From an uncultured Caulobacterales bacterium (lineage in GTDB: Bacteria > Pseudomonadota > Alphaproteobacteria > Caulobacterales > Maricaulaceae), in assembly GCA_938003545.1 (NCBI GenBank), contig CALKXY010000043.1, positions 1 through 36,922 on the forward strand: DNA of 36,922 bases. Reading direction: 5' to 3'. Below the pieces are notes generated by a model. That model did not search any database. It saw only the letters and a list, made by a program, of their open reading frames with translations, and was not told the DNA's origin. Of the stretch, positions 7,541-36,922 are shown piece after piece (position 1 is the first letter of the stretch; each line of letters opens with the position of its first letter). The position numbers and the translations under genes are program-made.

Positions 7541-9172
7541 ATGCCTGCACCAAACCCTGATCTTCCGGCTTTTGATCCTGCGCGCCTCGCGCCCGTAAAA
7601 CGGGCTCTAATTTCCGTTTCTGATAAATCTGCGCTGATCCGTCAGGCTCAAGCTCTCCATGCGCGCGGCGTGAAACTTGTCTCGACGGGCGGCACGCATC
7701 GCGCCATCGCTGCGGCAGGTATTCCAGTCAAAGATGTCGCAGAACTGACGAATTTTCCTGAAATGATGGATGGCCGCGTCAAGACGCTTCACCCGATGGT
7801 GCATGGCGGTTTGCTCGGTGATCGTGATCTCGTATCGCATAAAGAGGCGATGCATGAACATGGTATTCTCTCTATCGATCTGCTGATCGTCAATCTCTAC
7901 CCTTTTGAGCAAGCGGTTGCAGGCGGCGGAAGTTACGAAATGTGCGTCGAAAATATAGACATCGGCGGACCTGCGATGATCCGTGCCGCCGCCAAGAACC
8001 ACGCCCATGTTGCCGTTTGCACGGACGCCGATGATGTCGATGCTGTCTTGGCTGATATGGATGAAAATGGCGGCCAAACGACAGGCACACTCCGTCAAAC
8101 CCTCGCCGCAAAAACCTATGCACGCTCTGCTGCATATGATGCAGCGATCTCCAATTGGTTCGCCAGCCAGATTAGCGGCACGCCCGCATATCGCGCGCAA
8201 GGCGGGTCTCTGAAGCAAGAGCTTCGTTATGGCGAAAACCCGCATCAGACAGCGGCGTTTTATACTGACGGATCAAACCGCGCAGGTGTCGCCACGGCAG
8301 AACAGCTCCAAGGCAAAGCCCTATCCTATAATAATATCAACGATACGGATGCGGCCTATGAACTTGTCGCAGAATTTGGATCAACCGCAGCAGGCGCCAA
8401 GCCTGCCGTCGCGATTATCAAACATGCCAACCCATGCGGCTTGGCGGTCGCGGATGATTTTATCACGGCTTATAAAAATGCCTTGGCATGTGATCCTGTT
8501 TCGGCCTTTGGCGGCATTGTCGCGTTGAACGGTAATCTGGATGCGGCAACCGCAAAAGAGATCGTCAAAGTCTTTACCGAAGTTGTCATCGCGCCAAGTG
8601 CAGATGACGACGCGATTGAAGTCTTCCGTAAAAAGAAAAACTTACGCCTCCTCGTTGCGGGCGGCTTGCCGGATGTCACATCGCCGTCTCTCACGCAGCG
8701 CAATGTCGCAGGCGGGATTTTGGTCCAAGACCGCGATAATGGATATGTCGCGGATGCCGATCTGAAAGTCGTTACGAAACGCGCACCAACAGACGCTGAA
8801 ATGGCGGACCTCCGCATGGCGTGGAAAGTCGCCAAACACGTCAAATCTAATGCGATCATCTATGTTAAAGACGGCGCAACCGCAGGCATTGGCGCTGGCC
8901 AAATGAGCCGGATTGACTCCGCACGTATCGCGGCGCGCAAAGCCGAAGATGCGCAAGCTGCTGCGGGATGGGACACGCCAAAGACAAAAGGCTGCGCCTG
9001 TGCCTCAGACGCGTTCTTCCCCTTCGCAGACGGCATGCTCGCCGCTGCTGCTGCTGGCGCAACGGCCATCATCCAACCAGGCGGATCAATCCGCGACGAC
9101 GAAGTGATTGCCGCAGCGGATGAAGCTGGGATTGCGATGGTATTTACGGGAATGCGTCATTTCAGGCATTAA
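7541..9172 (+). CDS. purH: Bifunctional AICAR formyltransferase / IMP cyclohydrolase
   Basis: PurH carries out the last two steps of IMP synthesis: formylation of AICAR with 10-formyl-THF, then ring closure. The 543-residue protein has the N-terminal MGS-like cyclohydrolase domain (about 20–165, with the STGGTHRAI phosphate-binding stretch) and the C-terminal transformylase domain. Transformylase residues K294-H295 sit in the KHANPCG motif. The start is ATG 7541, 64 nt after the preceding dehydratase gene. It is the last gene before a long non-coding stretch. Length and motifs are normal. Confidence 0.96.
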
Positions 9173-9218: not shown

Positions 9219-9523
9219 CTCGCACTAAGTGAAACGTAAATGAATCATCAAATAAGTATAAGTTAGGTCGTCTAATTTGTTACTCTAGGCCAATTGCGCC
9301 GAATAGTTTCACTGCCCTTCGGCTCATATACTTAGGATATTTGCTACACTCTTAAAGACATGGACTAAAGGCCCTCGGGATAAAGCTGAGGGTCACGAAT
9401 ATGGCAGAGTAAGTTTAAACTTAATCCTTGTTTTGCCGAAATTATAATCATTTCACTTCAAGCCTTTACTATAAAACTCAAGAGAATGATCCTCGGTGCC
9501 GAAACCTATGTCATGATATACAG
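9219..9523. other. AT-richer non-coding stretch upstream of structured element copy 1
   Basis: I see no supported gene here. A short hairpin is possible around 9371–9394 (CCCTC with GAGGG). A TATAAT hexamer occurs at 9443–9448, but no well-spaced −35 box accompanies it. The promoter of the downstream structured element is expected in this stretch, and the element itself may begin somewhat before 9524. Confidence 0.4.
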
Positions 9524-9894
9524 GTTCTTTCGGACACGGGACAGGTAGAGCTCATCTGCTGGTGCCGGAAGACGGTGGGGTTGAGCATTTTCGGGTGAGA
9601 CCGAGAACTGTGCCGGACCTTTTGCGATGAGAGTTGACCGCTGGGCGTCAACCGGGGCCTTGGGATTTACACCCTGAGTGTCTGACCGGTACGCCCAACT
9701 GCAGGACCCCCAACCCCTTCGCTGTTATGTGTCCCCCAGACACATAACTAACGCTACGACATCAACAACCATCGCCGCGTGATTGATATTCGCGAAAAAC
9801 AAACTTTCTATTTCGGTATCCGTCGTGGATATCGATCACGCGGACAGTCCTATTTAAAGGCTCCGACGTTTAGCCGACCCCAAGATGGGCGGTT
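9524..9894 (+). ncRNA. Unrecognised structured non-coding element, copy 1
   Basis: This stretch without a credible gene matches, in inverted orientation, the window end (36605–36922). The first 25 nt (9524–9548) and last 22 nt (9873–9894) are identical between copies, with patchy similarity between. Visible structure includes a 10-bp perfect hairpin at 9724–9748 (absent from copy 2), a GGGCGT/ACGCCC-closed stem starting near 9636, a GGTATCC/GGATATC hairpin at 9815–9833 that covaries with copy 2, and a weak long-range pairing of 9538–9542 with 9847–9851. A terminator-like stem follows directly at 9887–9943. This fits a transcribed RNA of about 370–420 nt read on +. I compared it from memory with RNase P RNA, tmRNA, 6S, SRP and common riboswitches and found no match. 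Transcription is inferred. Confidence 0.45.
9724..9748 (+). other. Perfect 10-bp hairpin with CCCCA loop
   Basis: GTTATGTGTC (9724–9733) pairs perfectly with GACACATAAC (9739–9748) around a 5-nt loop. It sits in the middle of structured element copy 1 in a segment that copy 2 lacks, so it is a copy-specific insertion or extension. Confidence 0.6.
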
Positions 9895-9943
9895 GCAGCG
9901 TTCCTATGCGTCGCGTTCTTCTAGGCTCCAACCGCCCTTTTTT
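9887..9943 (+). terminator. Terminator-like stem ending structured element copy 1
   Basis: GGGCGGTT (9887–9894) pairs with AACCGCCC (9930–9937), and six T follow (9938–9943). The loop is long (35 nt) and may itself fold. The 3' arm and U-tract lie inside the last codons of the convergent ABA4-like gene, so the two transcripts would overlap tail to tail. Confidence 0.6.
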
Positions 9944-36155: not shown

Positions 36156-36494
36156 TTAGCGGCGCTTATTTTTCCGTGCAGCATATTTCGCATCACGGCG
36201 GGCTTTTTGTGCGCGCACCAATTCTTCTTGTGCTTTCTTCTGCGCTTCGATCGCCAGCAGCTTTTTACGCTCTTCTTCTGCTTTTGCAGCCGCCGCTTCG
36301 GCTTCCTGACGTTTACGTTCTTCACGGCGTTCGGCTTCGCGGGCTTCGCGGGCGACATTACGTTTCGCACGCTCTTCCATGATGCGGGCCTTTTCGGCCG
36401 GGTCCAGCTGTTTTTCTTTGGCGCGCTTAAGCATGGCGAGTTTCGCCTCTTTTTGCTCTTTCAAGCGGTCGTTAAAATTCTGGCCGGGAATCAT
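36156..36494 (-). CDS. DUF6481 family highly charged helical protein
   Basis: This 112-residue protein is almost entirely Lys/Arg/Glu/Ala, with a long uninterrupted helix or coiled coil (about 10–110) and a very basic C-terminus (AKYAARKNKRR). It begins MIPGQNFNDRLKEQKEAK, the start seen in DUF6481 proteins. Function is unknown; the charge suggests nucleic-acid or ribosome contact. It lies downstream, on the same strand, of structured element copy 2, with 110 nt between. Confidence 0.75.
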   Translation of the reverse strand: MIPGQNFNDRLKEQKEAKLAMLKRAKEKQLDPAEKARIMEERAKRNVAREAREAERREERKRQEAEAAAAKAEEERKKLLAIEAQKKAQEELVRAQKARRDAKYAARKNKRR

Positions 36495-36604: not shown

Positions 36605-36922
36605 AACCGCCCATCTTGGGGTCGGCAAATTAAGAAAAGCGGGACAGTCCGCGTGGTCGATATTCGCGACGGAATACCGAAAGTAGAAAAGTTGTTTTAC
36701 GCAAATATCAAGGATCGGGGTGTCAGACCAATCCATAACCACGCAGCAGCAGTTTTTGATGCAGCGGCCTGTTTGTCCCCACAAGTCATGCCATTAGACA
36801 AGGCGGTCGGCTCTCACTCCAAAAGTCCCGGCACCTCTTTGGCTCTCACACCAAAACGCTCAGACCCACCGTCTCTCGGTACTAGAAGGTGAGGCGCCTA
36901 CCTGTCCCGTGTCCGAAAGAAC
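36605..36922 (-). ncRNA. Unrecognised structured non-coding element, copy 2 (runs to window end)
   Basis: Read on the minus strand this matches copy 1 at 9524–9894: the first 25 nt (36922–36898) and last 22 nt (36626–36605) are identical, with diverged sequence between. CGGGACAG near the 5' end (36909–36902) pairs perfectly with CTGTCCCG (minus strand, 36647–36640), a long-range 8-bp closing stem. The GGTATTC/GAATATC hairpin (36678–36659) keeps its pairing by a T–A for C–G swap relative to copy 1. A CCAAAG/CTTTTGG hairpin enclosing GTGCCGG is also possible. It is about 53 nt shorter than copy 1 in the middle. It may extend past the window. It is read towards the DUF6481 gene. No known RNA family recognised; transcription is inferred. 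Confidence 0.45.

Follow-up and report, generated by a model that had tools for sequence, protein, structure and literature searches.

The inverted pair at positions 9524-9894 and 36605-36922 of the window, by which we mean the whole stretch of 36,922 nt analysed here, belongs to a family of elements that, in some marine alphaproteobacteria, are dispersed at tens of copies per genome and in both orientations. The sequence-only reading, which had noticed the two copies as a diverged inverted pair, described something real and understated it: the pair are members of this dispersed family. The family probably represents a set of stand-alone genes for a structured, pseudoknotted non-coding RNA, with modules exchanged between the copies and a likely action in trans. 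The fold of the RNA and the mosaic composition of the copies are the best-supported parts of this reading.

The 5' ends of the two copies (9524-9548 and 36898-36922) are 100% reverse-complementary over 25 nt, and the 3' ends (9870-9894 and 36605-36629) are 96% reverse-complementary over 25 nt. Alignment of copy 1 with copy 2 displays a 5' region and a 3' block common to both and a divergent middle, as had been described. The likeness is not a matter of chance, since a BLAST search of copy 1 against its own genome recovers copy 2 with E values of 1.9e-18 and 4.4e-17. That genome (G000; 2.31 Mb, 52 contigs, 75.9% complete) contains 51 matches to copy 1 and 49 to copy 2, and merging the BLAST matches of both copies with hits of the 3'-domain model yields 48 family places. 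Since two places at contig ends may belong to a single copy cut in half, we put the minimum at about 35 copies. The suspicion that further copies had broken the assembly is borne out, as at least 26 of the 104 contig ends of this genome lie within 350 nt of a copy, the window end at 36922 included, in a count that used the lengths of all but two contigs. Comparison of flanks with G013, a genome that is probably Litorimonas cladophorae KCTC 23968 (NZ_BMYV01), shows that the start of contig C3 and the end of C51 correspond to the left and right flanks of a single G013 copy (L121), and the ends of C13 and C46 to those of another (L143); each of these contig-end pairs resembles one copy split by the assembly. 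The features of the window are the following:

7541-9172: open reading frame upstream of copy 1, identified as purH (Pfam PurH)
9414..9523, + strand: conserved upstream (promoter-like) region of copy 1, from -110 to -1, drawn from conservation over own-genome copies
9524..9850, + strand: structured RNA core of copy 1 with a type A middle domain, from R1 and R2 model hits and folding
9527..9571, + strand: helix H1 of copy 1, strands 9527-9534 and about 9563-9571, from alignment A2
9538-9542, + strand: 5' strand of the long-range helix of copy 1, inside the H1 loop
9775..9843, + strand: long 3' helix of copy 1, strands 9775-9794 and 9824-9843, from covariation in alignment A3
9847..9851, + strand: 3' strand of the long-range (pseudoknot) helix of copy 1, pairing with 9538-9542, from 115 cores
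9873..9894, + strand: conserved 3' hairpin of copy 1, from 25 nt that agree with copy 2 at 96%
36156..36494, - strand: DUF6481 gene (Pfam PF20089), downstream of copy 2 in the same direction and outside the element
36605..36629, - strand: conserved 3' hairpin of copy 2, from the match to 9870-9894
36642..36922, - strand: structured RNA core of copy 2, type A, with its 5' end at 36922 and its upstream region beyond the contig end

Copy 1 sits between purH and an ABA4-like gene (Pfam). The 5' model (R1) scores 122.8 bits at 9524-9638 and 121.6 bits at 36806-36922, and the 3' model (R2) 85.2 bits at 9771-9850 and 56.3 bits at 36642-36724. Elsewhere in the window, a 60-nt direct repeat occurs three times at 2313-2639 within the open reading frame 1914-2774, the later units being 83-90% identical to the first.

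A unit of the family opens with conserved upstream DNA of about 110 bp, continues with a core that measures 233-423 nt (its median over 91 parsed copies being 289 nt) and closes with a 3' hairpin; as judged by eye, the core is followed by a variable spacer and then, in many copies, by a comparable hairpin. When copies are anchored at the first base of GTTC (34 from G000, 30 from G013 and 23 from G008), upstream conservation begins at about -110 to -100 in all three genomes, and the last 50 nt before the core carry 1.2-1.5 bits per position in the 34 own-genome copies. The upstream region of copy 1 contains the word ATCC at -100 (9424) and at -35 (9489), and a -10-like TATGTC at -17 (9507). Of 109 copies, 67 have ATCC exactly at -35 and 30 have it at -100, and 14 matches fall elsewhere than in these two zones; a -10-like word, from a list chosen after viewing the copies, has its first base at -17 in 64 copies and at -12 in 13 copies. 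A sigma-70 scan of copy 1 was negative on the + strand, a T-run terminator was likewise not found there, and both results count against our reading. The two fixed positions of ATCC, 65 bp apart and without a sigma-70 consensus at copy 1, suggest that the upstream region would be read by a dedicated activator or an alternative sigma factor.

The elements do not encode a protein. The earlier remark that neither copy holds a consistent frame extends to the family, where the longest stop-free stretch falls in any of the six frames (91 copies). It is antisense in 76 of the 91, divided 32, 25 and 19 over the three frames, and its median length is 81 codons vs 70 in mononucleotide shuffles (90th percentile 93). 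Antisense stop triplets number 7.3 per copy vs 11.5 in shuffles, yet no single frame is conserved. A protein-coding repeat is ruled out, as no open frame is maintained across the 91 copies. Nor do the elements match a known RNA: a scan of the window against Rfam 15 at gathering scores gave no hits, and scans with E allowed up to 5 (five loci of type A) or up to 2 (six loci that are of type B, of type C or from another genus) gave no credible hit within an element. With nothing credible inside the scanned elements, the Rfam check proposed with the sequence-only reading does not refute it, and a known Rfam RNA is ruled out. A tRNA or tmRNA in the window was looked for and rejected. Outside the scanned elements Rfam reported one tRNA and one sub-threshold 6S RNA, the latter at L050:1882-2040 (own contig C15), downstream of an element copy, with 43.9 bits vs a cut-off of 46.4. 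Among the titles and abstract openings listed from an open-access library no account of the family was found, and nothing pairing Litorimonas with non-coding RNA. The family looks undescribed, and its members look like folded non-coding RNA genes.

The suggestion of a structured RNA gains support from covariation, from a G-U pair that is kept and from a long-range helix. In the 5' domain (26 sequences) 98.7% of cells are paired, both partners vary in 13 of 21 pairs, and covariation scores 0.608 vs at most 0.151 with the partner strand slid. Helix H1, taken from alignment A2, has 99.0% of cells paired and both-side changes in 4 of 8 pairs. The 3' helix (alignment A3, 23 sequences) has both-side changes in 12 of 20 pairs and a score of 0.447 vs 0.057-0.127 when slid. 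The structures of both domains come from the very sequences they are scored on, which gives them an advantage over the slid controls. None of 500 shuffles reached the covariation score, either for the 5' domain or for the 3' helix. The number of further pair types in A3 does not exceed that in shuffles (75 of 500 match it), which counts against our reading. Overall, compensatory changes exceed the controls, as is the mark of a structured non-coding RNA. One position of the 5' domain holds a G-U pair in 26 of 26 sequences, and such constancy points to an RNA rather than a DNA hairpin.

The long-range helix joins GGGAC in the H1 loop to GTCCC at the 3' end of the core, and each of its five pairs is present in 93-100% of 115 distinct core sequences. 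The outermost pair, which varies, is found in 93.0% of the cores vs 80.3% after shuffling (the highest value among 2000 shuffles being 87.0%), with A opposite T in 16 of 16 cases; the pair beyond the helix is at chance (53.9% vs 51.1%). As this helix crosses H1, the fold is a pseudoknot. Against this stands the result of RNAalifold, which by itself favours an extension of H1 that competes with the long-range helix. Folded singly, copy 1 (9524-9935) is strongly stable, with a z of -4.9 and 0 of 100 shuffles equally stable, and copy 2 (36605-36922) only weakly so, with a z of -1.5 and 5 of 100 equally stable. The long 3' hairpin of the constant frame bears a UAAAACA-type loop. The architecture is kept despite sequence change in copies from ten genomes of the genus, the own genome included, and from one genome of another genus; copies from further genera likewise retain it.

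The constant frame, made up of H1, the long-range helix and the long 3' hairpin, carries interchangeable middle domains and helix variants. At least three types of middle domain (A, B and C) occur in G013 and also in the own genome, type C there being recognised by eye. The 20 type A copies parsed from the own genome, out of 41 entries, display 19 combinations of segment variants, with 5, 7, 7, 7 and 2 variant classes for the five consecutive segments. The copies taken from G013 (11 of 30 entries) and from G008 (11 of 23) form 11 combinations each; the entries left out of this and of the identity comparison below were cut by contig ends or failed the text patterns. Pairwise identities of neighbouring segments correlate in the own genome (0.40, 0.25, 0.14 and 0.53), while most of the distant segments are uncorrelated (S1-S3 -0.09, S1-S5 0.09, S2-S5 0.02), as assessed with 1000 relabelings. 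There are exceptions that count against this pattern, namely S2-S4 in the own genome (0.28, p 0.035), S2-S5 and S3-S5 in G013 (0.42 and 0.41), and S1-S4 and S3-tail in G008 (0.58 and 0.49). Short-tract recombination between copies would give just such a shuffling of variants.

A separate observation concerns a palindromic stem-loop of the form GTGCA-WWW..WWW-TGCA, which is inserted in four different helices (19 cases in the 91 copies, from six genomes; examples are L050, L068 and L084). Its density, for a pattern chosen after viewing the copies, is 0.72 per kb in the elements vs 0.004 per kb in the flanks. It looks like a plug-in hairpin module.

Conservation in relatives, on which the first description of the pair had made its standing depend, is strong in model searches of family and genus genomes. 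The 5' model finds the element in at least 26 of 137 genomes of the bacterial family, and the 3' model in at least 33 of the 137, in 6 of 19 genera. At least 12 of 299 genomes in a sample of the order carry it, all within the same bacterial family, and at least 1 of 385 in a sample of the class, the own genome; no genome outside the bacterial family appeared among the scored candidates of these two samples. With 12-33 candidates scored per genome, searches over more than 40 genomes give lower bounds and may miss distant members, and the E-values of the covariance models, which had a short calibration, are rough. Within the genus G013 has the highest count, with 43 matches; at the other extreme, neither model has a hit in the whole genomes of G001, G006, G011, G014 and G017, an absence that counts against our reading. 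The 43 matches of G013 (20 on the + strand, 23 on the - strand) are spaced more evenly than random, with a gap CV of 0.73 vs 0.96 (p 0.026) and 5% of gaps under 15 kb vs 20% (p 0.006).

How did the copies come to occupy their sites? Using ORFs in flanks of up to 2 kb, we compared the 41 own entries with 30 sampled of the 43 G013 copies. For 21 of the 41 own entries a G013 copy has a flank gene in common, with side and strand both kept, and none shares a gene only in another arrangement. Counted from the G013 side the figure is 16 of 30, fewer because a copy cut in half sometimes makes up two own entries. The shared arrangement was found 13 times in 41 against G008, with 2 other (23 copies sampled), 2 times against G010, with 3 other (13 sampled), 3 times against G005 (8 sampled) and 2 times against G002 (7 sampled), with no other arrangement in the last two. 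The distance to the 3'-side gene agrees within 20 nt in 13 of 35 cross-species pairs, and both flanks match in only 6 of 53, a comparison limited by short flanks and by the many copies at contig ends; given these two figures, some shared sites might reflect separate insertions beside the same gene. The internal own copies C33 and C22 each have one flank in common with the same G013 copy, a split that suggests a rearrangement.

At shared sites the RNAs resemble each other no more closely than random between-species pairs do. Identities at shared sites and in random pairs are 0.771 and 0.764, 0.795 and 0.791, and 0.739 and 0.744 for the RNA (11, 5 and 10 pairs), and 0.629 and 0.635, 0.650 and 0.625, and 0.640 and 0.636 for the upstream region, from 22 of 41 (G000), 28 of 30 (G013) and 19 of 23 (G008) entries. 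Types of middle domain agree at 5 of 11, 5 of 5 and 5 of 10 shared sites, where chance predicts 0.63, 0.77 and 0.59. Sites that are shared while their RNAs have not stayed alike point to ectopic gene conversion; that the shared sites were inherited and not re-invaded is the weaker part of the argument. At the DUF6481 site of copy 2, a type B copy lies upstream of the gene in G013 and a copy is also present in G008; in the remaining 11 genomes that carry this gene, the fetched 1.5 kb on each side contains no copy. G005 shares the outer flanks there and lacks the element, although comparison of the filled and the empty site yields no clean boundary. The gene purH is present in all 18 genomes of the genus; in the fetched purH stretches, some of them shortened, the only copy besides that of the own genome is in G010, further off, and beyond it lies a gene matching the one after copy 1. 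No copy was seen within 1.5 kb after purH in G013, G008 and G005.

We hypothesize that each copy would be transcribed from its own upstream region, and that tracts the size of a stem-loop may be exchanged between copies by ectopic gene conversion. In trans, the RNAs would most likely serve as the RNA component of a ribonucleoprotein or as part of an RNA complex, and a pool of related isoforms may be at work together. A more specific version is possible, which we put forward tentatively: some 40 separately promoted genes might furnish a combinatorial repertoire of isoforms through swaps of stem-loop cassettes, the GTGCA..TGCA hairpin included, with the specificity of the trans-acting RNA or ribonucleoprotein residing in the swapped domains. 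It would be an RNA counterpart of cassette-based antigenic variation.

The chief rival to a gene family acting in trans is a mobile element, selfish and non-autonomous, that would need its RNA or DNA fold only to be spread by an enzyme encoded elsewhere. Such an element would account for copy numbers between none found and 43 in one genus, for polymorphic sites (that of copy 2 is filled in 3 of the 14 genomes with the gene), for the missing copies near purH, for shared-site identities no higher than random, and for patchy presence and dispensability. We nevertheless consider it rather unlikely, as the sites shared with G013 all keep side and strand and some keep the gene distance, and the unit brings with it 110 bp of conserved upstream sequence. 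By eye, the flanks showed neither terminal inverted repeats nor target-site duplications. A linked partner gene was rejected, since within-genome blastp of the flanks (six genomes, up to 2 kb on each side) brought out no gene family recurring within a genome, only two related pairs. The domain RVT_1 occurs in 6 of 18 genus genomes, copy-rich and copy-poor alike, including G001 and G007, which have no or one copy; it is absent from G013, with 43 matches at an estimated completeness of 100%, and from G000, at a completeness of 76%. As G013 has no RVT_1 hit, we reject a retroelement, or a derivative of a group II intron, that would depend on such an enzyme in the same genome. A type A query found no match in plasmid and phage collections, and 14 viral contigs matching an 18-base pattern gave no R1 hit; with this one query, a plasmid- or phage-borne element is ruled out.

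The copies could instead be leaders or terminators regulating neighbouring genes in cis, which we find improbable. The largest downstream ORF runs in the same direction in 55 of 91 copies and in the opposite direction in 30, and is lacking in 6, and the element is therefore not merely a leader; a riboswitch is rejected on the same ground, the downstream genes being neither always co-directional nor related. The excess of co-directional ORFs (55 of the 85 copies having one) agrees with a role in cis, as do some convergent sites at which, in two or three species, the gene ends at a steady distance of about 80-115 nt from the core, but 30 of the 85 ORFs face the element, flank genes within a genome are unrelated save for the two pairs, 11 of the 14 genomes with the neighbour gene of copy 2 lack the element there, and the fold is much bigger than a terminator. 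Least probable are orphan guide RNAs of an RNA-guided nuclease of the OMEGA type. Here the large pseudoknotted scaffold and the many dispersed copies, as in orphan omega RNAs, are set against the finding of PF07282 (TnpB/Cas12f-like) in 0 of 18 genus genomes, with control hits in 6 of 14. Both edges of the core are moreover conserved, and a hypervariable guide-like end was not seen by eye. A TnpB guide RNA is rejected with the absence of PF07282 from the genus.

Bacterial structured RNAs of such size are usually encoded by one or few genes per genome. GOLLD, ROOL and OLE span hundreds of nucleotides and have an elaborate conserved fold and an unclear function, while HEARO and omega RNAs, the partners of IscB and TnpB, are structured, occur in many copies and are tied to mobile elements. 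REP/RAYT, MITEs and the Rickettsia palindromic elements are dispersed, intergenic short palindromes in tens of copies, and rRNA genes are dispersed and homogenised within a genome by concerted evolution. The present family is like GOLLD, ROOL and OLE in its length of hundreds of nucleotides and its elaborate conserved fold, and differs from them in its smaller core (median 289 nt), its dozens of dispersed copies, its swapped modules, its confinement to one bacterial family in the samples searched and its lack of an Rfam match. It shares with HEARO and omega RNAs a structured RNA in many copies, but not a recurrent adjacent gene, PF07282 in the genus or an Rfam match. Like REP/RAYT and other small repeats it is dispersed, intergenic and present in tens of copies; unlike them it conserves an RNA-level fold and a regulatory-looking upstream region. 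The outcome of exchange also differs from the concerted evolution of rRNA, being a set of different mosaics and not uniformity. A cryo-EM paper deals with GOLLD, ROOL and OLE (PMC12286853), and a further paper with REP elements (PMC8266576).

The family copies account for the break-up of assemblies of such genomes. They also provide a natural set of well over 100 variants for working out fold and function, and the cultured strain with 43 matches, probably Litorimonas cladophorae KCTC 23968, makes direct tests of transcription and partner feasible. A genus with a cultured member would possess dozens of dispersed genes for one elaborate RNA, which have a common upstream region and swapped domains, bear a record of inter-locus exchange and may present a case of RNA-module recombination in bacteria.
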